Origin: Verrucomicrobiia bacterium | Lineage (GTDB): Bacteria > Verrucomicrobiota > Verrucomicrobiia > Limisphaerales > CAIMTB01 | Length of the DNA: 32,593 bases | Reading direction: 5' to 3' | Assembly: GCA_019634625.1 (NCBI GenBank) | Contig: JAHCBA010000055.1 | Location: 1 to 32,593, forward strand | Shown here: positions 8,911 through 32,593 of the stretch, piece by piece | Position numbering within the stretch: the stretch's first letter is position 1 | How the letters are laid out: the number at the start of each line of letters is the position of its first letter | Made by a program: the position numbers and the translations under genes | The notes under the pieces: model-generated | Told to the model about the DNA's origin: nothing | Databases searched by the model: none | What the model saw: only the letters and a program-made list of their open reading frames with translations

Positions 8911-11841
8911 ATGACACAACCGACCAGGAGAAAGCTCTGGACGCTGGCCTGCCTCACGGCGGCGTTCGGGTGGATGTCTGCACAAGCCGCCGCACCGGCG
9001 ACGCCACAGGGCTATATCAAGGCGAAGGAATTCCTGAACATTGGGGGTACCGCCATCACCGATCTGACCGGGAACGCGAAGTTTCCCGACCGTCCGGACC
9101 TGGTGGCCTATCCGACGTACTTCGAGTGGCCTCAGGCCGATCCGCCCGACATCAACACGCCGCCGCCGGGGGATGTGAAGAACAACTACGGCGTGCAGAT
9201 CATTGGCTACTTCCACCCGCCGGCGACCGAAGCCTATACGTTCTATCTGTCCGCCGACGACAACGCCGAATTGTGGTTGAGCACGGACGAGAATCCGGCG
9301 AACAGAGTGCGGATTGCGACCGAACCTCAATGGAACAACCCGCGGGACTATTTCGGGACGGACCGGCGACCGAACGCGGAGAACATTTCGGCTCCGATCA
9401 ACCTGGTGCAGGGCCGGGCGTATTACATCGAGGCCCTGATGAAGGAAGGCACCGGCGGGGACAACCTTTCGGTGTCGATCGATGGGTTCCTGCCGATTTC
9501 GGGGGACATGCTTTCCGGGTTCGAGGTGGGTCAGGCGCCGGTGATCCTGGCGCAGCCTGCGGATGCGTTTGTGTATGCCGGGGGTTCGGCGACGTTCTCG
9601 GTGGGTTTTGACATTCCGCCTCCGGGCACGTTGACGAGCATCCGCTGGCAGAAGAACAACGCGGATATTCCGGGGAGCAACGTCAGCACGCTGACCCTGC
9701 CGGTGGTGGCGGCGGACAACGGGGCCAAGATCAAGGCCATTCTGACCACTTCGGTGGGCACGGTGACGTCGGAGGAAGCGACGTTGACGGTGGCGTCGCT
9801 GGCGAATGAATTCACGCCGGGCGTGGTGAAGTTCGAGGCCTACCACGACATTGCGGGGACGGCGGTGGATCTTCTGCTGGACGATCCGAAGTATCCGGAT
9901 GCGCCGGACAACGTGGCGCTGCTGGGGGCGATCGACACGCCGAACGGGTATGGGGACAACTATGGGGCGCGGGTGACGGGGTTCTTCATTCCGCCGACGA
10001 CCGGGCAGTACCGGTTTTTCATCCGTAGCGACGACGCCTCGCGCTTTTATTTGAACACGACGGCGGGCGGAGCGACACCGGATGCGTTCCTGGATGTACC
10101 GATCGCCGAGGAGACGGGGTGTTGCGGGGCGTTTCTGGAACCGGACGACGACATGGGGCAACCCTACGAGACGTCGCTGGCGATCCCGTTGACGGGCGGG
10201 CAGCGTTACGCCTTTCTGGCGTTGGTGAAGGAAGGGGGCGGCGGAGATTTCCTGCAGGTGGCGGTGCGACGGGAGGGCGACACCACGCCGGCGGGTTCGC
10301 TGGTGCCGCTGGGCGGGTCGATGGTGGGGGTGAATGCCAAGCCCAGTCTGGGCACGCCGCAGATCACCGGCCAGCCGCAGGGCATTCCCCAGTTGCTGCA
10401 GGGCCGGAGCGCGGTGCTGAGCATCGCGGCGTCGGTCACTCCGACGGCCTACAACTTCCCGGTGCTGGTGCAGTGGCACCGGAACGGGACGGCGATTCCG
10501 GGCGCCACCGGCCTCAGCTACAGCATCGCCTCGGCCTCGGCCGCCGACAGCGGCACCTACACGGCCGTGGTCAGCGCCCCGAGTGGCGAATCCGTGACCA
10601 GCGGAGAAGCGGTGGTGACCTATGTGGCCGACACGTTTGCGCCGAGGATCAGCCGGGTTCAGGCCACCTCGGTCTCGACGTTGATCGTGACCTTTGATGA
10701 GCCGATCGACGTCGCGACGGCTGGGATGGCAGGGAACTACTCGATCTCGGGCGGCGTGACCATTTCGGCGGCCACGGCGTCGGGCAGTTCCGTGCTGTTG
10801 AGCACCAGTGCCCTGACAGTCGGGGCAGACTACACGCTGACCGCGGGCGGGGTGCGGGACCCGTACGGGAACACGATGGCGGCGGGAACGACGGCGAACT
10901 TCCGCGCGAATGTGGTGTCGTATGCCGACGTGATTCTCGCGGACGGGCCGATCCTCTATTATCGGTTCGAGGAAGGGACCGGCCAGAGGACGGTGAATCT
11001 GGGCACGGCGGGTTCGGCGGCGGACGGGCTGTGGATGACGGGCTTCGGCCCGGACGATTCCTCGCCGACCGACGTGAGTTTTGGCGAGGGACCGCGGCCG
11101 AGCGAGTTCTTCGGTTTTGCGGCGAGCAACCGGTCGGCCCGGTTCACCGGGCAGGATGACCTGCTGTGGCTGGATGCGCAGTTGCAGCTGCTCAACAACC
11201 TGGGAGCCTTCACGCTGGAGTACTGGGTGAAGCCGGCCAACCGGGTCTCGGACCCCACGACCTTCGGCAACCGCATCGGAATTGTCGGCCAGAACGACGC
11301 CGTCGAGTACGGGTTTATCAATCCGAATACCATCCAGATCTGGACGCCGGGCGGCGGGTCGCTCGACACGACCTACACCTTCCCGGACAACACGTGGCAT
11401 CACGTGGCGACCATCGCGGACGGCACCAGCATCAAGAACTACTTCAACGGCGTGTTCATCAACCAGATCACGCAATCATCGGCCAACTACGGGAGTTCCG
11501 ACTTCTCCGTGCGCATCGGTGGCGGGGGTGTCTTCGACGGGTCGGGCAATCACTTCACCGGCGAGATCGATGAAGTGGCCATCTTCGACAAGGCCATTCC
11601 TGCGGATCGCGTCGCGGCGCACTTCAGGGCTGGCAAGGAGGGTGGCAGCGCGCCCGGATCGGATCCCGCGACGCTCATCGTATCCCGCACCGCGACGGGC
11701 GTCACCCTGGCCTGGGAGGGAGGCGGTACCCTGGAGACGGCGCCAGCCGTGACCGGTCCGTGGACCCCGGTGGCGGGTGCATCGAGCCCACACGCAGTGC
11801 TCAGCAGCGGTGCAGCGGCCTACTATCGGGTGTCGCAATAG
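8911..11841 (+). CDS. Secreted PA14 / Ig-like / LamG multidomain surface protein, 976 aa
   Basis: A signal peptide (residues 1-27, ending SAQAAA) is followed by a PA14-like domain (about 33-205; GYFHPPATEAYTFYLSADD, then LVQGRAYYIEALMKEG), an Ig-like domain (210-293), a second PA14-like domain (298-470; GFFIPPTTGQYRFFIRSDD), a second Ig-like domain (480-570; AADSGTYTAVVS), an SbsA/Big_5-type Ig domain (577-665; LIVTFDEPIDV) and a LamG/concanavalin-like domain (670-900; FTLEYWVKPAN, HHVATIADGTS, GEIDEVAIFDKAI). The last ~65 residues form a short module ending AAYYRVSQ that recurs in three other proteins here. PA14 and LamG domains usually bind carbohydrate; no catalytic residues were seen, so an adhesin or glycan-binding role is inferred. 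It is transcribed alone between a good promoter and a strong terminator. Confidence 0.88.
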   Translation: MTQPTRRKLWTLACLTAAFGWMSAQAAAPATPQGYIKAKEFLNIGGTAITDLTGNAKFPDRPDLVAYPTYFEWPQADPPDINTPPPGDVKNNYGVQIIGYFHPPATEAYTFYLSADDNAELWLSTDENPANRVRIATEPQWNNPRDYFGTDRRPNAENISAPINLVQGRAYYIEALMKEGTGGDNLSVSIDGFLPISGDMLSGFEVGQAPVILAQPADAFVYAGGSATFSVGFDIPPPGTLTSIRWQKNNADIPGSNVSTLTLPVVAADNGAKIKAILTTSVGTVTSEEATLTVASLANEFTPGVVKFEAYHDIAGTAVDLLLDDPKYPDAPDNVALLGAIDTPNGYGDNYGARVTGFFIPPTTGQYRFFIRSDDASRFYLNTTAGGATPDAFLDVPIAEETGCCGAFLEPDDDMGQPYETSLAIPLTGGQRYAFLALVKEGGGGDFLQVAVRREGDTTPAGSLVPLGGSMVGVNAKPSLGTPQITGQPQGIPQLLQGRSAVLSIAASVTPTAYNFPVLVQWHRNGTAIPGATGLSYSIASASAADSGTYTAVVSAPSGESVTSGEAVVTYVADTFAPRISRVQATSVSTLIVTFDEPIDVATAGMAGNYSISGGVTISAATASGSSVLLSTSALTVGADYTLTAGGVRDPYGNTMAAGTTANFRANVVSYADVILADGPILYYRFEEGTGQRTVNLGTAGSAADGLWMTGFGPDDSSPTDVSFGEGPRPSEFFGFAASNRSARFTGQDDLLWLDAQLQLLNNLGAFTLEYWVKPANRVSDPTTFGNRIGIVGQNDAVEYGFINPNTIQIWTPGGGSLDTTYTFPDNTWHHVATIADGTSIKNYFNGVFINQITQSSANYGSSDFSVRIGGGGVFDGSGNHFTGEIDEVAIFDKAIPADRVAAHFRAGKEGGSAPGSDPATLIVSRTATGVTLAWEGGGTLETAPAVTGPWTPVAGASSPHAVLSSGAAAYYRVSQ

Positions 11842-11915
11842 CATCTCAGCGCTTCCCGTCGGGTGGGCGCAATCCGCGTCCGCCCGGGCGGAGGTCTGCT
11901 GATCAGAACTTCGCA

Positions 11916-11952
11916 GCGACCGGACCTTTTGGGGTCCGGTCGCTTCGTTTTT
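11916..11952 (+). terminator. Rho-independent terminator after the PA14/LamG gene
   Basis: GCGACCGGACC and GGTCCGGTCGC form an 11-bp GC-rich stem with a 6-nt loop containing TTTT, followed by CTTCGTTTTT. It begins 75 bp after the stop codon and is the clearest terminator in the window. Confidence 0.9.
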
Positions 11953-12134
11953 GGGGCGAAGGGTGGGGACGGGGCCCCGATTCCCTGGCGAACGAATTGG
12001 CTTGAGGATGGACGAAGGGGGATGGGTGCAAGGGTGTGACCGGGTGAGGCCGGGACACCAACGAGACGAGGGACGGCGGGCCGGAGCGGTTCGGAAAGAA
12101 CAAGCCAGGCACTGTACTGTTGATCTGTAATTTT

Positions 12135-12233
12135 AATAAGGCTGGCATAATGAATTTGACCTCTACAGCCCCAATAAAGCCGGGACACCGAACGGGTGAT
12201 TGTAATACGGCTGGCATCCTGAATACGGCTGGC
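12135..12233 (+). repeat. Cluster of REP-like TAATA-GGCTGGC motifs
   Basis: TAATAAGGCTGGC (12135-12147), TAATACGGCTGGC (12203-12215) and AATACGGCTGGC (12222-12233) lie in the 706-bp gap between two surface-protein genes. The last two are a direct 19-bp repeat (ending CATCCTGA). They match the motifs beside the transposase remnants at 191-238. The first and last copies are followed, after a few bases, by TTTGACC or TTGACC, hinting at a longer shared unit. The rest of the gap holds the terminator (11916) and a 159-bp element (12300). Confidence 0.55.
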
Positions 12234-12299
12234 ATCCTGATGTTGACCGCGATCTCGTTGCGCCTTCCGACAACTCGCCGATGCGCCCCGGGTGGTGGG

Positions 12300-12458
12300 G
12301 TGCATCCCGGAGTGGTGGGTGAGGAGGCAGGGAATCGGAGGGACGAGCCCTGCGAGTCCTCAAGCCAAAGCTCCACACCGGTGCGGCCTCGTGGAACTCG
12401 GCCCTCCGGAGCGACGCCTGGCGAAGTGGGCGCCTCTCCCCACAACTCCGGGATGCAC
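12300..12458 (-). repeat. 159-bp inverted-repeat element, copy 1
   Basis: It is bounded by GTGCATCCCGGAGTGGTGGG on the left and the inverted CCCACAACTCCGGGATGCAC on the right. The inside is the reverse complement of copies at 21997 and 32029, including the conserved CGGAGGG-CGAG words. The length is exactly that of the other two copies. GGGTGGTG lies just outside both ends, a possible target duplication. A further lone end (ACAACTCGCCGATGCGCCCC) lies at 12270-12290. The element sits about 90 bp before the SBBP gene. No coding function. Confidence 0.8.
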
Positions 12459-12547
12459 GGCGGGTGGTGCGCCGGAGGGCAAAGTCTTTGACACTCCGGA
12501 AAGGGTGTCAGCAGACTCGGGGACCTCCTTGAGGGGGTGAAACACCT

Positions 12548-15085
12548 ATGATTTTTCCGCGGGACGGCTGGACCGGTGGCACGCATGGGCGAGGGGTGTG
12601 CGCGGCGTTGGGCATGGCGCTCGGCATGGCCTTCGTGGCCGGCGGTGGGGGATGGGGGACGACCGTCGGGGCGATGCGGATTCCGGAGGTGTCGCTTTCC
12701 ATGCCGCTGTTGTCGGCGTCGGTCCGCGTGGGAGAGCGTGCGCCGCTGCCGGTTGCGGGGTCGGGGGTGCCACAGCGATGGTCGCTGCCGCTGGCCTTCG
12801 AGCCGGCCGACGAGCGGGCGCCCGGGGATGCGGGATACATCGCGAGGGGGGATGGATACACGGTGTACGTGACGGGCGGCGGGGCGCTGCTGGCGTTGTC
12901 TGGCGGGAGCGGGATGGCGTCTGGAACATCGGACGAGGCGGGGCAGCGGGCGGGGCGGCGGGAGCGGGTGACGGGAGGGGAGCGGGCGCTTCACCTGGTG
13001 CGATTGCGGTTCGAGGGGGCGGAGACCGAGGGGGAGGGGATTCCGGAGGGTCCGATGGCGGGACGGGTGCATCGACTGAGGGGGGAGGATCCGAGCGGCT
13101 GGCAGACGGGCGGGGGCCGGTATGGTCGGGTCCGGTACACGGAGGTGTACCCGGGGATCGACGTGGTGTTCCACGGGCATGGGCGCGAGCTGGAGTATGA
13201 CTTCGTGGTGGGGCCCGGTTCGGATCCCGGGCAGGCGCGACTGCGTTTCGATGGCGTGAGCGGGGTGACATTGGGGGAGGACGGGGGCCTGCGGATCGAG
13301 ACGGGGGTGGGGATGGTGCATCAGCGGGCGCCGGTGGCGTTTCAGGATGGGCCGCTGGGACGCGAGAGCGTGCGGGTGGGGTACCGGATCGAGGAGGACG
13401 GGGCGATTGGATTTGAGTTGGGGGACTACGACCGGGACCGGACCCTGGTGATCGATCCGATTCTGAGTTACGCGACGTTCCTGGGTGGGTCCGGAGTGGA
13501 CCAGTGCTGGGACATTGCGGTGGACGGGGATGGGTCGGTGTGGGTGGCCGGCGAAACGGAATCGGCGTCGCTGTCGAACCTGCGGATCCTCTCGACGAAC
13601 ACGTGGTCCCCGGTCTTTCTGGGGGGACAAGCGGGGATTGGGGGGGATGCGTTCGTGGCGCGGCTGAATGCCGACGGCACGGCGGTGGAGTGGTTCACGT
13701 ATCTGGGGGGATCCGATCTGGACGGGGCCTTCACGCTGGCGATTGGGGCGGGGGGCGAACCGGTGATCGGAGGGTTCACGTCCTCGACCAATTTCCCGGT
13801 CACGGCCGGGGCGGTGATGTCGGCGGTGCCGGGGTTGACCAACCGGTTCACGGGCCGGCTGCCGCTGTCGGGGTTTGTGACGCGGCTGACGGCGGACGGA
13901 TCGGGGATTGTGTCGTCCACGTTGTTTGGGGGGGACGGGGAGGACCAGGTGATCGATCTGGAGGTGTTGGAGGATGGGCGGGTGGTGGCGGTGGGAAGCA
14001 CAACGTCCACGAACCTGCCGTTGCCGGGGACGACGTTGCAGGCGGGGGCGGGTGGGGGGACGGATGCGTTTCTGGTGGTGCTGGATGGGGCGGGGACGGA
14101 GGTGCTCGGGGGCGGTTATCTTGGGGGGAGCGGGCGCGATTCGGCGGAGGGAGTGGCGGTTTGGGGCGGGATGGCGCATGTGGTGGGGATCACGGCGTCC
14201 ACGAATTTCCCGGTGCGACGGGCATGGCAGTCGGAACCGGGGGGGCAGGCGGACGGGTTTGTGGCGGGCTACCGGCTTGCCGGGGGTGCGGAGGCATGGG
14301 AATACGCGACGTATTTTGGCGGTGGAGAGAACGACTACGCATACCGGGGGCGGATGGGGCCGACGGGGGAGTTGTGGGTGGTGGGGGAGACGGGTTCGAC
14401 GAACTTCCCGACGTTGGGATCGTTGCAGAGCACGAACGCGGGGTTCATCGACGGGTTTGTGGCGCGGTTCACGGAGGCGGGGACGCTGGTTTCGAGCACG
14501 TACTTCGGGGGTGGGGCCGTGGATGCGCTGTGGGATGTGGCGGTGGATGGGCGGGGGCGGGCCCATGTGGTGGGAGAGAGCGCGTCGGGTACGTTGCCCG
14601 GGGTCGGGGAGGGATCGCTTCAGTCCACCAACCGGGGGGCGGCCGACCTGGTTCTGGCGTGGATCGATCCGGACGGGACGTTGCTGACGACCTATTACGG
14701 GGCGCCGGGCGAGGAGGTGGCCTACGGCGTGGCGGCGGACGCGGCGGGGAACACCTATGTCACGGGCCGGGTATTGTCGCCGCTGTTTCCGGTGAGCAGC
14801 ACCAATGTGGCGCAGGCGACGTTTGGCGGGGGACGGACGGACGGGTTTGTGTTGAAGGTGGTGCATGAACCGCTGATCGAGGCGGCGCGGGTGGAAGGCG
14901 GGGTGGAGGTGTCGTGGACGGCGCCCAATCCGGGATTCGTGCTGGAGACGGCGAGCGCGTTGGGGGGTGCGGAGGCATGGGCGCCGGCCGGGGTGGAGGC
15001 GGAGGTTCGGAACGGGCGGCATGTGGTGCGGCTGCCGATCGAGGCGGCGGACTGTGTGTTCCGGTTGCGATGGGAGCGCCAGTGA
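12548..15085 (+). CDS. Secreted SBBP-repeat beta-propeller protein (DUF7948-type N-terminus), 845 aa
   Basis: The ATG at 12548 has a good GAGGGGGTG Shine-Dalgarno 8 nt upstream. An N-terminal hydrophobic segment (ALGMALGMAFVAGGGG) suggests export. Residues ~70-300 match the domain that usually precedes SBBP repeats (YTEVYPGIDVVFHGHGRELE, then LVIDPILSYATFLGG). From ~305 to 775 there are tandem beta-propeller repeats with recurring YLGGS, DGxVWVAGET and STNFPV words. The last ~70 residues are the same C-terminal module type as in the neighbouring surface proteins (FVLETASALGGAEAW, ending VFRLRWERQ). The role is probably structural or binding at the cell surface; no active site is visible. The gene is very G-rich, giving long spurious open frames on both strands. 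Confidence 0.85.
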   Translation: MIFPRDGWTGGTHGRGVCAALGMALGMAFVAGGGGWGTTVGAMRIPEVSLSMPLLSASVRVGERAPLPVAGSGVPQRWSLPLAFEPADERAPGDAGYIARGDGYTVYVTGGGALLALSGGSGMASGTSDEAGQRAGRRERVTGGERALHLVRLRFEGAETEGEGIPEGPMAGRVHRLRGEDPSGWQTGGGRYGRVRYTEVYPGIDVVFHGHGRELEYDFVVGPGSDPGQARLRFDGVSGVTLGEDGGLRIETGVGMVHQRAPVAFQDGPLGRESVRVGYRIEEDGAIGFELGDYDRDRTLVIDPILSYATFLGGSGVDQCWDIAVDGDGSVWVAGETESASLSNLRILSTNTWSPVFLGGQAGIGGDAFVARLNADGTAVEWFTYLGGSDLDGAFTLAIGAGGEPVIGGFTSSTNFPVTAGAVMSAVPGLTNRFTGRLPLSGFVTRLTADGSGIVSSTLFGGDGEDQVIDLEVLEDGRVVAVGSTTSTNLPLPGTTLQAGAGGGTDAFLVVLDGAGTEVLGGGYLGGSGRDSAEGVAVWGGMAHVVGITASTNFPVRRAWQSEPGGQADGFVAGYRLAGGAEAWEYATYFGGGENDYAYRGRMGPTGELWVVGETGSTNFPTLGSLQSTNAGFIDGFVARFTEAGTLVSSTYFGGGAVDALWDVAVDGRGRAHVVGESASGTLPGVGEGSLQSTNRGAADLVLAWIDPDGTLLTTYYGAPGEEVAYGVAADAAGNTYVTGRVLSPLFPVSSTNVAQATFGGGRTDGFVLKVVHEPLIEAARVEGGVEVSWTAPNPGFVLETASALGGAEAWAPAGVEAEVRNGRHVVRLPIEAADCVFRLRWERQ

Positions 15086-21592: not shown

Positions 21593-21803
21593 GTCTGAGG
21601 CCTGAAACCTGAGACCTGAGACCTGAGACCTGAGACCTGAGACCTGAAGCCTGAAGCCTGAAGCCTGAAGCCTGAAGCCTGAAGCCTGAAGCCTGAAGCC
21701 TGAAGCCTGAAGCCTGAAGCCTGAAGCCTGAAGCCTGAAGCCTGAAGCCTGAAGCCTGAAGCCTGAGGCCTGAAGCCTGAGGCCTGAGGCCTGAAGCCTG
21801 AAA
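21593..21803. repeat. Heptamer tandem repeat (GCCTGAA/GACCTGA), about 30 units
   Basis: A run of 7-bp units, first GACCTGA-like and then almost pure GCCTGAA, with a few GCCTGAG variants at the far end. Because 7 is not a multiple of 3 it leaves all frames open and creates repeated QASGFRL-like shadow peptides. It lies about 60 bp upstream of the GTG start of the CocE-type gene on the minus strand, within a 696-bp gap that also holds a 159-bp element. Unit number is likely to vary by slippage. Confidence 0.95.
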
Positions 21804-21996
21804 TCCAGTGCCCGTGCGGAATGGGAGGTTCGGGCAGGATCGAACCCATCGGGCCGGCGCCAAGGCGGCGATCGAAAGGGTGTGCCTGCGGGTTCGTGGA
21901 CGAGTACGAGTACCGCCCTTCGGGCTGAGTGCGAGTCCCCACGAGGGATGGCTTGGGCGAGTTCCAGGAACCGGAGATGTGCCCCGGGGGCACCCA

Positions 21997-22155
21997 GTGC
22001 ATCCCGGAGTTGTGGGCAGAGGTGCATACTCCGCCAAATGGCGCTTCGGAGGGCCGAGTTCCACGAGGCCGCTATGGTGTGGAGCGTTGGGTTGAGGACT
22101 CGCGGAGCTCGTCCCTCCGATTCGCTGGCTCGGTACCGACAACTTGGGGATGCAC
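21997..22155 (+). repeat. 159-bp inverted-repeat element, copy 2
   Basis: It begins GTGCATCCCGGAGTTGTGGG and ends with the inverted GACAACTTGGGGATGCAC. Inner arms also pair: TTCGGAGGGCCGAGTTCC on the left against the reverse complement of GAGCTCGTCCCTCCGAT on the right. The whole unit could fold as one long interrupted hairpin. It is in the same orientation as copy 3 (32029) and opposite to copy 1 (12300). It ends 73 bp before the glcD ATG. Confidence 0.85.
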
Positions 22156-22228
22156 CGGGAGCACCTGGATGTCCCGGCAGCGCTTGACCCTGTGCGGGTC
22201 GGGTTCCCATGCTGGACGCCCGGTCGCC

Positions 22229-24156: not shown

Positions 24157-25613
24157 ACGCGGTTGCCGGCGGCGGCTCGAACCCATCCCATCTGAAGGGA
24201 CTCGACTACTCGGTGGTGCAGCAGTGCATGCACTGCGGGATGTGCCTGCCCACGTGTCCGACCTACGACGCCACGAAGCTGGAGCGGAACAGTCCGCGCG
24301 GCCGGATTGCGCTGATGCGGGCGATTGCGGACGACCGGCTGGAGCCGACGAAGGCGTTTGCCGAGGAGATGTACTTCTGCCTGGGCTGTCTGGCGTGCAT
24401 GACCGCGTGTCCGGCGGGGGTGAACTACGCCGAGCTGTTCGAGCATGCGCGGGCGGAGGTCGAGTCGCGGGGATTGCTGCGATCGGTGCGGCGCGGCTTC
24501 ATCCGGGCCTTCACGGTGAAGTGGTTGTTCATGGATCACCGGCGGCTGACCGCGCTGGGCCGGGTGATGCGGCTGTACCAGGAGCTGGGGTTGCAGCGGC
24601 TGGTGCGGGGCAGCGGGATCCTGAGGCTGCTGCCGCGGCGCCTGCGGGAACTCGAGGCGATGACGCCGCCGGTGCAGCCGGAATTCTCGAACGAGCGCAT
24701 TGCGCGGGTGACACCGGCGGTGGGGCCGCGGCGATTCCGGGTGGCGGTGCTGACGGGGTGCGCGCAGGACCTGATCTTCAGCGACGTCAACGCCGACACG
24801 GTGGAGGTGCTGGCGCGCAACGGCTGCGAGGTGCACACGCCGGCGGACCAGCCGTGCTGCGGTTCGTTGCACGCGCACAACGGCGAGTGGGCGCTGGCGC
24901 AGGAACTGGCGCGGCGTTCGATCGACGCGCTGCCGCCGGAGCGGTACGACGCGATCATCACCAACGCGGGGGGGTGCGGTTCGCATCTGAAGCACTACGG
25001 GACGCTGTTGAAGGACGACCCGGCCTATGCGCGGCGGGCGGCGCTTTGGGACGGCCGGGTGAAGGACATTCACGAGTTTCTGGCGGAGCACGGGGTGACG
25101 CCGCCGGCGCCGGGGGATGCGCCTGAGCAGGTGGTCACCTACCACGAGTCCTGTCACCTGTCGCACGGGCAGAAAGTGGTCCAGCCGCCGAGGCAGGTGC
25201 TGCGGGCGATTCCGGGGCTGCGCCTGGTGGAATTGCCGGAGGCGAACTGGTGCTGCGGCAGTGCGGGGATCTACAACCTGACCCAGCCGGAGATGGCGGG
25301 GCAATTGCTGGATCGGAAGGTCCGGCACGTGCGGTCCACGGGTGCGGCGGTGGTGGCCACGGCCAATCCGGGATGCCTGCTGCAGTTGATCAACGGGTGC
25401 CGGGCGGCGGGGATGGCGTTGCGGGTGGTGCATCCGGTCACGCTGCTGGCCGAGGCCTACCGGCGCACGGGGTCGGTCGCGAAGGCGGAGCGCGGCGGCG
25501 CAACCGGAAGCGCAACCGGAAGCGCAACCGGAAGCGCAACCGGAAGCGCGACCGGAAGCGCGACCGGCGGGGTGGCGGGAGGCAGGTCCGGCACGGGAGG
25601 CGGTGCGTTATGA
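24153..25613 (+). CDS. glcF: Glycolate/2-hydroxyacid oxidase iron-sulfur subunit, GlcF type, 486 aa
   Basis: Two 4Fe-4S clusters are bound by C25-C28-C31-C35 (CMHCGMCLPTCP) and C76-C79-C82-C86 (CLGCLACMTACP). Two CCG domains follow (CCGSLHAHNGEW; YHESCHLSHGQKV with CCGSAGIYN), which bind further cofactor in this family. The protein takes electrons from GlcD and feeds the membrane quinone pool. The C-terminus carries an unusual tail, residues ~450-486, of five ATGS tetrapeptides followed by Gly/Ala-rich sequence, encoded by a 12-bp tandem repeat; the family normally ends near LLAEAYRR. No glcE-like gene is adjacent. The stop overlaps the aldolase ATG (ATGA). Confidence 0.92.
   Translation: MNAVAGGGSNPSHLKGLDYSVVQQCMHCGMCLPTCPTYDATKLERNSPRGRIALMRAIADDRLEPTKAFAEEMYFCLGCLACMTACPAGVNYAELFEHARAEVESRGLLRSVRRGFIRAFTVKWLFMDHRRLTALGRVMRLYQELGLQRLVRGSGILRLLPRRLRELEAMTPPVQPEFSNERIARVTPAVGPRRFRVAVLTGCAQDLIFSDVNADTVEVLARNGCEVHTPADQPCCGSLHAHNGEWALAQELARRSIDALPPERYDAIITNAGGCGSHLKHYGTLLKDDPAYARRAALWDGRVKDIHEFLAEHGVTPPAPGDAPEQVVTYHESCHLSHGQKVVQPPRQVLRAIPGLRLVELPEANWCCGSAGIYNLTQPEMAGQLLDRKVRHVRSTGAAVVATANPGCLLQLINGCRAAGMALRVVHPVTLLAEAYRRTGSVAKAERGGATGSATGSATGSATGSATGSATGGVAGGRSGTGGGAL
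25500..25567 (+). repeat. 12-bp in-frame microsatellite at the 3' end of glcF
   Basis: GCAACCGGAAGC repeated about five and a half times, with two late units reading GCGACCGG. It is in frame and encodes ATGS tetrapeptides, so gain or loss of units changes tail length without a frameshift. It ends about 40 bp before the start of the aldolase gene. Confidence 0.9.
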
Positions 25614-27602: not shown

Positions 27603-29777
27603 TCAGAACCCGCCTGAGAGGCGGGCTCCCGTGGGGGCATCGACTTCGATGGCGCGGAAGAAGCTCCGGGACCCCTGGGCCTCGAACACGAGCGGGTGCG
27701 GGTCCGGGGAGGGCAGGGTGAGGGTGGCGATCCCGGACCAGTCGGTGAGGTTGGTGCTGTATTCGATGCGGCAGGTGCGTCCCGGGCTGCCGGTGAGCCG
27801 CAGGTGGAATTGACCGTCGGCCAGTTCGGGAGCGGACAGGACGATGCCGGGAGCGGGGGTGGGAGGGTCCCAGGTCACCTGGAGAACACCGAGGTAGGTG
27901 AACTGGTTGGGGTTGGTGTTGGCCGGACCGGGGGAGAGGGCGACCTCGATGACGCCCTGGGGGTTGGGGCGCACGCCGGAGACGCTGGCGCTTTCGGCCA
28001 CGTTGTTGGCGGCATTGAGGAAGGTCACCGTGGTGTCGGCGCCGGTGAGGGTGTAGCGGGTTTCGCGATGATCGCTGACGCCGAGGCGTGAGGCGTAGAA
28101 GGTCAGGTGATAGGGGCGGTCGGGGGCCAGCCCGGAGAGTCGAAATCGCGGGAACACATTGGCCAGGCCGCTGAACGCCGCGGTATTGCCAAAGAGGGAA
28201 TCCCGGGTCGCGCTGGAGGGAAAGAGGCCGCTCTGGCCGGTGCCATTCTCGTTGGCGCCATTGAATCGGGAGACGATCTGCAGGCGGACTTCGGTGGCGG
28301 CGCCATCGGCGCTGACCACGGGTGAGAGAACGCCGCCGTCCTGGGCGCCGAGGGAGGCGGTGACGTTGTTCCAGTGCCGGCCTGGATCCTGGGTGCCGAA
28401 CTGCGTGGGCGACCCGGCGGCTCCGAAGTCGAACAGGATTTCGGGAACCGGCACAGGCGCCCAGGAGATCTGCAAGGCGCCCAGCAGGGCCCCCAATTCG
28501 TGGCCGTCGTCCGAGGGGATGGAACGGACCACGATGCGAAGGATGCCGTCGGGGGTCGGTCGAAGGCCGCGCAACGTGGCGGTGAGGTCGATGTTGGCGG
28601 CGGCATCGAGTTCGGCGGAGGCGGAACTGGCGCCGACGACCGAGTAGCGGGCCGGGCGTGGCGGCGCCGGTTCGAGGGTGGAGGCGTAGAAGGTCAGGTG
28701 ATACTCCGAGCCGGGATCAAGGCCGTGGAGTTCGAAGGCGGAGCCTTCCGGCGTTGCAGCCACCAGGGCATCCCGGGTGACGGAGGCGGGGAGGTGGGAG
28801 GCGGAAGTCGTGCCGTTCGCCTCCGCCCCGGCAAAGCGGGCGACCATTCGGAAACCGATTCCGGAGTCCGCGCCGTTGGTGGCGACGAGGTCCGGGAGGG
28901 TGCCGGAATCGGTGCCGGCCAGATCCGGGCCGATCACGTTCCAGGCGGGAGCGGGGCGGTCGTTTGGGCTGCCGGGGGAAGAATCCAGGAGGCCGAAGTC
29001 GAGGCCGATCGAGCGGGTGGGGAGGCGGATCGAGGGGGCGGGATGATCGCGGGCCCAGGTTTCGAGTTCGGGGGCGAGGATCGAGGCCCAGAGGGCATAA
29101 CCGTCGGGGTTGAGATGCAGCCGGTCGGCGAGGAACAACTCCGGGCGGGGCTGGCCTGCGTCATCGAGCATGGGATGGAAGACATCCGCGAACCGGAGGT
29201 GGGGATGATCCGCCGCGTGCGTTCGGACCCGATCGTTGAGTTCACGCTGGGCGTCGAGGACGCCGGCCCGGCTGGGGCTGGGCTTGACCGCGACGAAGAG
29301 GATGCCGGTGCCGGGCAGGTCCTCCTCGACGCGGGTGACAAACGCCAGCCAGTCCTCGAAGACGCGATCGACGGTCTTGCCGCCGGCGAGGTCGTTGTCG
29401 CCCTGGTACAGGGCGATCAGGGCCGGATGATACGGTGTGACGACCCGGTCGAAGAAGTGGAGCACATCGCTCAACTGCGAGCCGCCGAAACCGCGGTTGA
29501 GGACTTTGAAGCCCGGGAAGGCGGCCTCCAGATCGTGCCACATCCGGAATGAGGACGAGCCCACGAAGAGGACCGGATCAGAGGGCGGTGTCCGGAGCCG
29601 GTCGGCATTTTCGAAGGCGCGGATTTCGGCTTCGAACGGGTTTTGGGTGGCGCTGGCGCCGGGGGCGAGCGCCAGCGCCATGACGATCACCATGGCGGCC
29701 AGGGTGCTGGCGGCGCGGGCCGGAAGCTGGAAGCGCGGCCGCATGGACGTCGGCATGGACGCCGGTAGGGACGCCAT
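27603..29777 (-). CDS. Secreted SGNH/GDSL hydrolase with two unrecognised 190-aa domains, 724 aa
   Basis: After a signal peptide (to about residue 44) comes an SGNH hydrolase (about 65-245) with the four blocks visible: S75 in FVGSSSF, Gly in NRGFGGSQLSD, N128 in LYQGDNDL, and D218/H221 in ADRLHLNPDGY. Such enzymes deacetylate carbohydrates or cleave esters. Two copies of a domain seen also in the upstream gene follow (257-440, diverged; 447-636, with RFNGANENG, SATRDSLFGN, YHLTFYASRLGVSD, RETRYTLTGA, FTYLGVLQV). A short C-terminal module (650-710; RIEYSTNLTDW, SFFRAIE) ends it. The ATG shares TGATG with the preceding stop, so translation is coupled; an internal ATG at 29744 would also give a signal peptide. 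Confidence 0.88.
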   Translation of the reverse strand: MASLPASMPTSMRPRFQLPARAASTLAAMVIVMALALAPGASATQNPFEAEIRAFENADRLRTPPSDPVLFVGSSSFRMWHDLEAAFPGFKVLNRGFGGSQLSDVLHFFDRVVTPYHPALIALYQGDNDLAGGKTVDRVFEDWLAFVTRVEEDLPGTGILFVAVKPSPSRAGVLDAQRELNDRVRTHAADHPHLRFADVFHPMLDDAGQPRPELFLADRLHLNPDGYALWASILAPELETWARDHPAPSIRLPTRSIGLDFGLLDSSPGSPNDRPAPAWNVIGPDLAGTDSGTLPDLVATNGADSGIGFRMVARFAGAEANGTTSASHLPASVTRDALVAATPEGSAFELHGLDPGSEYHLTFYASTLEPAPPRPARYSVVGASSASAELDAAANIDLTATLRGLRPTPDGILRIVVRSIPSDDGHELGALLGALQISWAPVPVPEILFDFGAAGSPTQFGTQDPGRHWNNVTASLGAQDGGVLSPVVSADGAATEVRLQIVSRFNGANENGTGQSGLFPSSATRDSLFGNTAAFSGLANVFPRFRLSGLAPDRPYHLTFYASRLGVSDHRETRYTLTGADTTVTFLNAANNVAESASVSGVRPNPQGVIEVALSPGPANTNPNQFTYLGVLQVTWDPPTPAPGIVLSAPELADGQFHLRLTGSPGRTCRIEYSTNLTDWSGIATLTLPSPDPHPLVFEAQGSRSFFRAIEVDAPTGARLSGGF

Positions 29778-31900
29778 CACGGGAGCCGTGCTTGGAAGAA
29801 CTGGGCGGCGTCGGTCGATTCGATCTCCACGGTACGCGACGGTCCGTCGAGGGTGACCTGGGGGCCGTCGGACCAGGCGGCTCCGAGGGTGGCGCTTCGC
29901 TGGATGAGGTAGGTGGCGCCGGGGGTGCCGTGGAGTTCGAAGGTGACGGTGGTATTGGAGCGGCTCAGGGCCGACAGGCTCGGAGGCGTGGAGGGCGGGC
30001 GGGCCGTCCAGTCGAGCTGGAGGATCCCGAGGTAGGTGAAGTGATTGCCGTTGTCGTTGTTGGGGCCGGGGGTGAGGGCGATGGTGAATGCGCCGGCGGC
30101 ATTGGGGCGCAGGCCGGTGACGACGGCGGCCTGGTCTTCGTTGTTGGCGACGTCGAGGTCCGCGATCGCCTCGGTGGCGCCGGTGACGGTGTAGCGGGTT
30201 TCGCGATTGTCGCCGACGCCGAGACGGGAGGCGTAGAAGGTCAGGTGGTAGTCGGTCTGCGGGTCCAGGCCGGTGAGTTGGAAGATGGGGGTGACGTTCT
30301 CGAGGCCGCTGAAGGGTTCGGTATTGCCGAACAGGGAATCCCGCGTGGCGCTGGGCGGAAAGTCCGGGTGGGTCAGGGTGCCGTTCTCGTTGACGCCATT
30401 GAACCGGGAGACCATTTGGAGGCCGAACGGGGTGACCGTGCCGTCGGTCATGACCAGCCCGGCCAGGGAGCCGGTGTCGGTGCTGCCGATGGCGCCGGAC
30501 ACGTTGTTCCACTGTTGAAAGGGATCGTCGGTCCCCAAGGTGGTCGGGGCCCCGGCGGCGCCGAAGTCGATGAGCACACGCGGGGAGAGGATCGGGGTGT
30601 ACTCGACGCGCAGGGCTCCGAGGTAGGTGAAGTGATTGGCGTTGTTGTTGTCCGGTCCGGGCGCGAGGGAGATCCGGATTTCGCCGGAGGCATCCGGGGC
30701 GATGTCGTCCACCCGGACCGTGGCATCGATGTTGTTGGAGGCGTCGAGATCGGCGGTGACGGAGGTGGCGCCGGTGACGGTGTAGCGGGTTTCGCGACGG
30801 TCGCCCACGCCGGTGCGGGAGGCGTAGAAGGTGAAGCTGTAGTGGAATGCGGGATCGAGGCCGGTGAACTTGAAGGCGGGGAAGACGTTCTCGAGGCCGT
30901 TGAAGGCTTCGGTGTTTCCGAAAAGGGAATCGCGGGTGGCCGATGCGGGGAACACGGTGGCATCGAGGGAGCCGTTGAGGTTGGCCCCGTTGAACCGGGC
31001 CAGCATCTGGAGGCCCATGGAGGTGACGGTTCCGTTGGTGGTGATCAGGCTGGCCAGTTCACCGGTGTCCGAAGTGCCGATCGGGGTGTCGAGGTTGTTC
31101 CAGGCGATCTCGGGAGCGGGTTCCTCGAATTCGGTGGGCCAGCCGCCGCCGCCGAAGTCGAGCAGCAGCCTGGCGCCATCGGGCAGCCGGACATCGAGCA
31201 CACCGAGGTAGGTGAAATGGTTGGCGTTGTTGTTGTCGGGGCCGGGCGTGAGGGAGATGGCGATTTCGCCCGCGGCGTCTGCGGCCATTCCGGTGACGGT
31301 GACGGTGCGATCGACGTTGTTGCCGGCGTCCAGTTCGACCGTTGCCTCGGTGGCGCCGGTGACGGTGTAACGGGTTTGGCGATTGTCACTCACCCCGAGG
31401 CGGGAGGCATAGAACGTCAGGTCGTGAGTGGCGCCCGGGTTGAGGCCGGTGAGTTTGAACGACGGGTAGATGTCCTCGAGGCCGTTGAACGACTCGGTGT
31501 TGCCGTACAGGGAATCGCGGGTGGCGGTCGAGGCGTAGAGTCCGGAGGCGAGGGTGCCGTTCTCGTTGGCCCCGTTGAAGCGGGCCACCATTTCGAGGGA
31601 GACGGTGGTGAACTCGCCGTCCGTGCGGATCAGGTCGGGCAACCAGCCGAAATCGTTCGCCCCGACGCTTGGGGTGACGTTGTTCCAGTAGAGGGGCTGG
31701 CCGGCGTCGCCCGGGACGGTGGCGTGCTCGGTGGAACCGAAATCCACCAGGAGGACGCTCGCCATGGCGGCGGTGGGTGCCAGGGCGAGGGCGGCAGCGG
31801 CCAGAGCGGCAGCGGCGAGGGCGGCGTGTGAGGCAGGTTTCAGGCGGTGCAGCATGGCCCGCCCCGTCGTACCCATCTCCCTTGCGAATTGTATTGGCAT
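29777..31900 (-). CDS. Secreted protein with three tandem ~191-aa repeats, 707 aa
   Basis: A signal peptide with a long Ala/Leu core (ALAAAALAAAALALAPTAAMA) is followed directly by three repeats at residues 48-238, 244-434 and 441-631. Each runs LIDFG..., WNNV, a GxLxxLIxTDG segment, ARFNGANENG, ATRDSLFGN, GLENVFPxFxLTGLDP, LTFYASRLGVGDNRETRYTV TGAT, DxxNN and ends HFTYLGVL. No cysteine bridges or catalytic residues are evident. I do not know a named family; a beta-sandwich binding or structural domain is inferred. The C-terminal module (640-707; YLIQRSATLGAAW, FFQARLP) is shared with other secreted proteins here. The ATG at 31900 has an AGGAAGGA site 8 nt upstream. It is coupled to the SGNH gene. 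Confidence 0.85.
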   Translation of the reverse strand: MPIQFAREMGTTGRAMLHRLKPASHAALAAAALAAAALALAPTAAMASVLLVDFGSTEHATVPGDAGQPLYWNNVTPSVGANDFGWLPDLIRTDGEFTTVSLEMVARFNGANENGTLASGLYASTATRDSLYGNTESFNGLEDIYPSFKLTGLNPGATHDLTFYASRLGVSDNRQTRYTVTGATEATVELDAGNNVDRTVTVTGMAADAAGEIAISLTPGPDNNNANHFTYLGVLDVRLPDGARLLLDFGGGGWPTEFEEPAPEIAWNNLDTPIGTSDTGELASLITTNGTVTSMGLQMLARFNGANLNGSLDATVFPASATRDSLFGNTEAFNGLENVFPAFKFTGLDPAFHYSFTFYASRTGVGDRRETRYTVTGATSVTADLDASNNIDATVRVDDIAPDASGEIRISLAPGPDNNNANHFTYLGALRVEYTPILSPRVLIDFGAAGAPTTLGTDDPFQQWNNVSGAIGSTDTGSLAGLVMTDGTVTPFGLQMVSRFNGVNENGTLTHPDFPPSATRDSLFGNTEPFSGLENVTPIFQLTGLDPQTDYHLTFYASRLGVGDNRETRYTVTGATEAIADLDVANNEDQAAVVTGLRPNAAGAFTIALTPGPNNDNGNHFTYLGILQLDWTARPPSTPPSLSALSRSNTTVTFELHGTPGATYLIQRSATLGAAWSDGPQVTLDGPSRTVEIESTDAAQFFQARLP

Positions 31901-31916: not shown

Positions 31917-32028
31917 GAGCTGGTTCGCGGCACGGACGGTTCCCTGCGGGACCGTGCGGCGTGACCACGAGCGTAAGGGGACAGCGGCATGGCGGGCAAG
32001 TGTGGTCCGTGGACCCAAGTCGCCGCCC

Positions 32029-32187
32029 GTGTATCCCGGAGTTGTGGGGAGAGGTGCGAACTCCGGTCAGCGTGGCTTCGGAGGGCCGAGTTCCACGAGG
32101 CCGCAGGGGTGTCGAGCGTTGGGATGAGGACTCGCGGAGCTCGTCCCTCCGATTTGCTGCCTCCTTGACCACAACTCGCAGATGCGC
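32029..32187 (+). repeat. 159-bp inverted-repeat element, copy 3
   Basis: It begins GTGTATCCCGGAGTTGTGGG and ends ACCACAACTCGCAGATGCGC, which pairs with the start. The interior keeps TTCGGAGGGCCGAGTTCC and CGCGGAGCTCGTCCCTCCGA at the same places as copy 2. It is again exactly 159 bp. It lies about 130 bp upstream of the repeat-protein start on the minus strand and directly before the 160-bp tandem array. Confidence 0.85.
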
Positions 32188-32209
32188 CCAGTCGTCGCGC
32201 ACGGATCTC

Positions 32210-32593
32210 CGAGGGCGGACGGGAAGTGGAACGGTGCCGGCAAAAAGGACTGAATCATCGTGCATATGCACGAAGTTTGAGTGGATTTGGAGGAGGGGGG
32301 AAGGTGGGGGTGGAGACGAGGCGGGGGGCGGGGATACGTGCGGATTGGGCAAGGGCGCGAGATTGGCACCGGGTGCGGGCGGGAAACGGAACGGGGCCGG
32401 TGAAAAGGACTGAATCATCGTGCATATGCACGAAGTTTGAGTGGATTTGGAGGAGGGGGTAAGTGGGAGGTGGAGTCGAGGGGCGGGGCGGGGATACGTG
32501 CGGATTGGGCAAGGGCGCGAGATTGGCACCGGGTGCGGGCGGGAAACGGAACGGGGCCGGCGAAAAGGACTGAATTATCGTGCATATGCACGA
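32210..32593. repeat. 160-bp tandem repeat with a 16-bp perfect palindrome, running off the window
   Basis: TCGTGCATATGCACGA, a perfect palindrome, recurs at 32258, 32418 and 32578, exactly 160 bp apart, each inside GGACTGAAT-AT...GAAGTTTGAGTGGATTTGGA. The remainder of the unit is G-rich (AGGCGGGGGGCGGGGATACG-like) and ends GGCGGGAAACGGAACGGGGC. A degenerate copy of the unit end precedes the first palindrome. The period is not a multiple of 3 and no frame is conserved, so it is non-coding. The array continues past 32593; its size is unknown. No gene lies between 31901 and the window end. Confidence 0.92.

Follow-up and report, generated by a model that had tools for sequence, protein, structure and literature searches.

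The C-terminal domain of the type IX secretion system (T9SS; Por_Secre_tail) is a small beta-sandwich that dozens of secreted proteins carry at their very C-terminus. PEP-CTERM, GlyGly-CTERM and LPXTG tails are C-terminal families as well, each specific to a lineage, borne by many exported passengers and composed of a motif, a transmembrane (TM) helix and a basic cluster, and Haft and Varghese take lineage-specific families of this tripartite kind to imply sorting systems (PMC3237569). In the type II secretion system (T2SS), signals have been located in two loops of the Fn3 domain of Pel3 and PelI, loop 5 and the C-C' loop (loop 3), the latter of which, in PelI, binds GspC/GspD (PMC7949064). 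The tail described here resembles the pattern of the earlier sorting systems as PMC3237569 presents it, in that unrelated exported proteins of one lineage have only the last 60 residues in common and the stop codon comes where the last predicted strand ends; unlike the tripartite tails, it is a predicted soluble beta domain.

The window, by which we mean the whole stretch of 32,593 nucleotides analysed (contig JAHCBA010000055.1 of a Verrucomicrobiia bacterium, order Limisphaerales), encodes four proteins, P1 to P4 (Table 1), to which the original prediction had ascribed a common C-terminal tail. A broad profile free of window sequences, built on 55 tails from other parts of the genome, bore this out, matching exactly four of the 260 window ORFs, all C-terminally, with E values of 4.9e-10 (P4), 4.8e-7 (P3), 3.3e-6 (P2) and 3.4e-6 (P1) and with matches that stop 0-13 aa short of the stop codon; the next-best window ORF scored 4.3 bits, and 13,000 shuffled ORFs reached 10.5 bits at most. 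The placing of all four proteins at 8911-15085 had to be corrected, as this interval holds P1 and P2 only and P3 and P4 lie 12 kb away on the minus strand; likewise P3 had been thought to end in FFRAIE, and its true end is about 12 residues further on, the last 8 with pLDDT <50. The four had also been called unrelated, which stands for P1 and P2, between which there is no meaningful similarity, but not for P3 and P4, whose common repeats are identical at 211 of 473 positions, so that there are three kinds of body and not four.

Table 1. Tail carriers of the window and their tails, with positions in the window
Feature	Position	Strand	Basis
P1: PA14 x2 / Ig / LamG protein, 976 aa	8911..11841	+	signal-peptide-like N-terminus read from sequence
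P1 tail, narrow form (LETAPAVTGPW ... YYRVSQ), reaches stop codon	11650..11838	+	profile; AF2 mean pLDDT 88.3
P2: DUF7948 + SBBP-repeat protein, 845 aa	12548..15085	+	domain scan
P2 tail, broad form, 3 aa ahead of stop	14861..15073	+	profile
P3: SGNH/GDSL hydrolase with two P4-type repeats; ATG overlaps P4 stop	27603..29777	-	ORF, repeat comparison
P3 tail, broad form, then ~12 extra residues, last 8 predicted disordered	27648..27842	-	profile, structure model
P4: three-repeat protein; 31876 is an alternative possible start	29777..31900	-	ORF, repeat comparison
P4 tail, broad form	29786..29998	-	profile

Aligned with one another over some 65 residues, the four window tails have few positions that do not vary. 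A narrower window-free iterated profile, from which 7 loci with 40-mers common to the window had been left out, found P1 strongly, P2 at 7e-6 and P4 weakly (0.003; 14.7 bits vs 12.4 bits for the top shuffle), and did not find P3. We therefore distinguish a narrow type, with the pattern LQSAPAVTGPW...YYRVRQ (P1), from a broad type (P2, P3 and P4), and judged by their sequences the four tails are one family only through intermediate sequences; two window-free sub-profiles, one narrow and one broad, were homologous by hhalign (E 3.8e-15). In the unbiased alignment A2 just three residues, an L, a G and an R, were 90% invariant, and the most conserved sites included the G in the PAVTGPW loop and the R in the last strand; the W of this loop was also highly conserved, in a set partly selected for that stretch. 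Loci of other genomes had been fetched by peptide patterns that included APAVTGPW, and the conservation of this stretch in alignments A3, A5 and A6 is therefore partly due to selection, from which A2 is free. Alignment A3 holds 30 of these 34 loci, with two left out for unknown residues (L111, L134) and two as near copies (L121, L126), all four of which are counted among the 34 below; 23 of the 34 went into alignment A6 and, as external rows, into A5. No Pfam or NCBIfam model fitted the tail (34 tails against both libraries and 23 further tails against Pfam only), and a literature search turned up no paper describing it.

A genome-wide profile count had been proposed along with the original prediction, and we carried it out on the genome to which the window belongs (88 contigs, 6.74 Mb in total). 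There were 39 tblastn matches with the P1 tail alone (E up to 1), at least 73 matches with a profile of 24 tails (E up to 0.1; best 150 of 313 candidates scored), and at least 149 with the broad profile (best 150 of 538 candidates scored). The 113 matches that we read comprised all 73 from the narrow profile, including the window's four, and 40 further broad ones, these being every second of 80 places picked by hand as new. The match was C-terminal in 101 of the 113, within 5 aa of the stop codon in 80 of these, and all 34 loci from other genomes were C-terminal as well, 0-4 aa ahead of the stop. The tail is an abundant, unnamed C-terminal domain, and the observation is both confirmed and larger than first stated. 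The 12 internal copies include one right after a signal peptide, one ahead of CHRD domains, one after Ig repeats, and five in large proteins (L074, L082, L088, L096, L100) where the tail domain is followed by Big_5 and CarboxypepD_reg, the Big_5 of L074 being unlisted at 0.001. The last residue was Q or R in 16 of 21 narrow-tail carriers vs 45 of 223 background genes, and is thus part of the domain; this background, used for signal peptides too, was a greedy choice of long ORFs around the carriers and not a set of annotated genes.

Carriers had a median length of 965 aa, and the bodies of the 101 C-terminal ones gave 65 clusters at a threshold of 1e-20 and 38 at 1e-5. Among 30 of these 101 that were scanned, 20 had a Pfam family at 1e-5, such as LamG, PA14, Ig, TIG, Big, FN3, TSP3, PPC, multicopper oxidase, beta-lactamase fold and 5'-nucleotidase, and none of the 20 was judged to be cytoplasmic. 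A crude signal-peptide rule was passed by 69 of 97 C-terminal carriers (17/20, 27/40 and 25/37) vs 63 of 223 background ORFs, and from their sequences the carriers look exported. An equal frequency of the tail inside proteins, or on cytoplasmic ones, was looked for as a sign against the original prediction and was not seen.

Beyond this genome, the narrow profile had matches within the order in 88 of 97 genomes, as many as 61 in a single one, and across the phylum in at least 23 of 240 genomes, mostly one or two; the broad profile matched at least 84 of the 240. At most 24-64 candidates were scored per genome in these searches, and the figures are lower bounds. The 34 loci came from named records, of which 28 have titles that name Verrucomicrobi-, Pedosphaera or Limisphaera, five are titled 'bacterium' and one 'Akkermansia muciniphila'. 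A plasmid search with the P3 tail gave zero matches.

The AF2 model of the P1 tail (mean pLDDT 88.3, core blocks 93-97) has strands at 19-24, 28-34, 38-42, 59-62 and 69-73 and a short bridge at 50-51, and that of the P3 tail (mean pLDDT 83.8) has six strands, the last at 70-76. Since the P1 model covers about the first 75 of the 90-96 residues of FN3 domains (3mpc_A 3-76 of 96; 4lpu 1-74 of 93; 7jgu 2-73 of 90), we read it as strands A to F without G, and both modelled tails are read as FN3/Ig-like sandwiches that would halt after strand F. PelI/Pel3 rank top among solved structures for both models (Z 5.0 over 59 residues and 7.2 over 70, both at an rmsd of about 2.5), tied with others, and a Z below 8 may indicate a common arrangement only; Foldseek returned no significant match (best E 0.34). 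The PelI/Pel3 Fn3 domain may share an FN3-type arrangement with the tail, but is N-terminal, has seven strands including G and is gammaproteobacterial, and the likeness is a structural one, with ranks tied with those of many FN3/Ig folds. By sequence, the only matches of the broad profile in the PDB below 0.01 were the glucanase/chitosanase chains 2rv9/4zxe (E 1.2e-4, ~50 residues), which we take to be discoidin-type domains that bind chitosan, and the next was the Fn3-like 3mpc (0.034). These discoidin-type domains differ from the tail in that their solved chains have 136-138 residues, and the match halts before the last strand; Pfam fn3, CBM and F5/8C had no match in the 57 tail rows scanned (34 + 23).

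Two enzyme families allowed the tail to be followed on homologous bodies. A multicopper oxidase carrier has homologs in 8 of the 97 genomes, its own included, with the tail directly behind the enzyme in five and a bare end in three, and one of the tail-free orthologs, that of genome G321, sits in a genome with 35 tail matches. Two of the oxidases are identical at 450 of 805 positions in the enzyme and at 7 of 69 in the tail, as though the presence of the tail had been kept but not its sequence, or as though tails had been exchanged. Nucleotidase homologs have the tail at their end in 4 of 6 cases, the other two running off the locus. In both families, sequence comparison shows the domain to be gained, lost or exchanged at precisely the point where the enzyme stops. 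By reading, several of the oxidases start with twin-arginine-like N-termini, for which a machine accepting folded proteins would be needed.

Exported proteins that otherwise differ have the tail in one fixed place, their very end, which suggests that it serves as a tag for delivery or attachment; we give nearly even weight to the reading that Verrucomicrobiota use it as a C-terminal sorting/export module, in the form of an FN3/Ig-like domain of 55-70 residues without strand G. Its very variable sequence, the 12 internal copies among 113 and the tail-free ortholog in tail-rich G321 speak against this. The main rival is glycan or surface binding, in which a FN3/CBM32-like module would hold secreted proteins to the cell's polysaccharide or to substrates; we consider this possible, and the FN3-like fold and the glucanase-domain profile match fit it equally well. 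The broad-profile matches to discoidin-type 2rv9/4zxe and Fn3-like 3mpc, the many LamG, PA14, Ig or TIG carriers and the occurrence of internal copies argue for binding, and a sandwich without strand G would cap a chain well, which would account for its position. Against it are the lack of any Pfam CBM, F5/8C or FN3 match in the 57 tail rows and the rarity of tandem copies among the matches read; moreover about 90% of tails are at the extreme C-terminus with almost nothing behind them, a place where binding modules rarely sit. It is improbable, in our estimate, that the tail is a neutral end-cap, a partnerless mobile domain that stabilises or lengthens secreted proteins and has spread by recombination at gene ends: tails do diverge far faster than bodies in the oxidase pair, and three of the eight oxidases dispense with them, but 88 of the order's 97 genomes have kept the tail, with as many as 61 matches apiece, and so have homologous enzymes of different families.

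Of the described systems, T9SS has the same logic and a domain of the same size, a beta-sandwich at the far C-terminus of many secreted proteins, and the tail has the same extreme C-terminal position on exported proteins (101/113; 34/34). A SprB repeat was weakly matched by 3 of 34 tails (best E 0.0021), but no NCBIfam or Pfam C-terminal T9SS model matched (four whole proteins with E up to 1; 34 tails; 23 tails with Pfam only) in libraries that presumably include models of T9SS tails. SprA (TIGR04189) matched in none of the 97 genomes, and in none of 14 control genomes either, so that its absence is unproven; the structural match lists for the tails contained no T9SS tail structures and are uninformative either way. 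Membership in T9SS is unsupported, and we hold it to be highly improbable. Still less probable is that the tail proteins are an exosortase (PEP-CTERM-type) substrate class. PF09721 is present in 90 of the 97 genomes, five times in the window's own, and co-occurs with tails (86 genomes with both, 5 with neither, 4 with exosortase only, 2 with tail only; Fisher 3.8e-5), but the five genomes with neither belong to two families, and the correlation of tail count with exosortase number over the 97 genomes (rho 0.35, kinship not corrected) falls to 0.13 given genome size. One exosortase gene of the own genome (L182:836-1852, G000:C48) lies ~130 nt behind a PA14/tail gene in an exopolysaccharide-like cluster; this adjacency was dropped as evidence, since 14 exosortase loci of other genomes hold zero tails. 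PF07589 (PEP-CTERM) had no match in the four window proteins and only 6 in the own genome, and membership is unsupported for a predicted beta domain with no PEP motif, TM helix or basic cluster. The profile scans agree with the original prediction that T9SS and PEP-CTERM motifs are absent.

For sorting or anchoring as originally predicted, then, the C-terminal position and the exported carriers speak in favour, and the lack of a discriminating secretion or processing partner against: exosortase and GspD are present but too widespread to discriminate, and SprA gave the result above. As between sorting and surface binding we infer rather than observe. If the tail is a sorting module, its passengers would exit the cytoplasm through Sec or Tat, and from there on we infer every step from what was observed, namely a tail family with its position and carriers, the fold predicted for it, the swapping on enzymes and the near-universal GspD-like secretins. 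The folded tail would be recognised in the periplasm by an export or surface-attachment machine common to very different passengers. GspD (TIGR02517) matched in 96 of the 97 genomes, 52 of them over cut-off, the own genome included; the 96 comprise all 88 genomes with tails and also 8 of the 9 without. Tail number tracks GspD matches weakly beyond genome size (rho 0.45 over 97 genomes, 0.30 given genome size; kinship not corrected). This, the likeness to the PelI/Pel3 Fn3 domain and the presence of GspD-like secretins nearly everywhere make T2SS the most concrete proposal: it would read two neighbouring loops, C-C' (which in P1 is PAVTGPW) and E-F, in the way that GspC/GspD read the Fn3 domain of PelI/Pel3, with the F strand of the tail as the chain end, at the stop codon. 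By this analogy T2SS is the likeliest reader of the tail, though taken by itself we think this step unlikely; rather doubtful, too, is the wider picture of a portable export ticket that in each genome would serve one to two hundred folded passengers and be read through the C-C' loop by a secretin-type machine of an undescribed T2SS-like sorting system.

Were the tail a sorting signal, sequence alone would tell which proteins make up the surface proteome in an order of bacteria that is large and mostly uncultured, and the long-standing question of how folded substrates are recognised by type II-like machines could be put to a portable, testable signal domain. Were it a binding module, it would still be a very abundant unnamed domain that deserves a family model.

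Several further features were recorded along the way. GspD-type matches, of which there are 20-36 per genome, lie in ORFs of 3,000 to 5,155 aa (G279:C60, G293:C27, G322:C76, G300:C25 and others); these giant ORFs are possibly secretins with many N-domains, and also occur in the tail-free genomes G265 and G269. Several GspD-like matches contain one in-frame stop codon, for example G264:C18:9387-11540 and G000:C7:102875-104377. The exosortase gene at L182:836-1852 precedes genes that by reading are EpsI-like and sugar-transferase-like. In the window, a dispersed repeat of ~163 nt recurs at 12298-12460, 21994-22156 and 32026-32189, with copies 82-84% alike, two direct and one inverted, and loci elsewhere in the genome have 40-mers in common with the window. 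Tandem arrays are found at 21595-21802 (the 7-mer CTGAAGC, 29.7 copies, 95% matches), at 32215-32593 (2.4 copies of a 160-nt repeat, cut off where the contig ends), and at 25498-25567 (5.8 copies of a 12-nt repeat), close to the 3' end of a gene that by reading is iron-sulfur/glycolate-oxidase-like.
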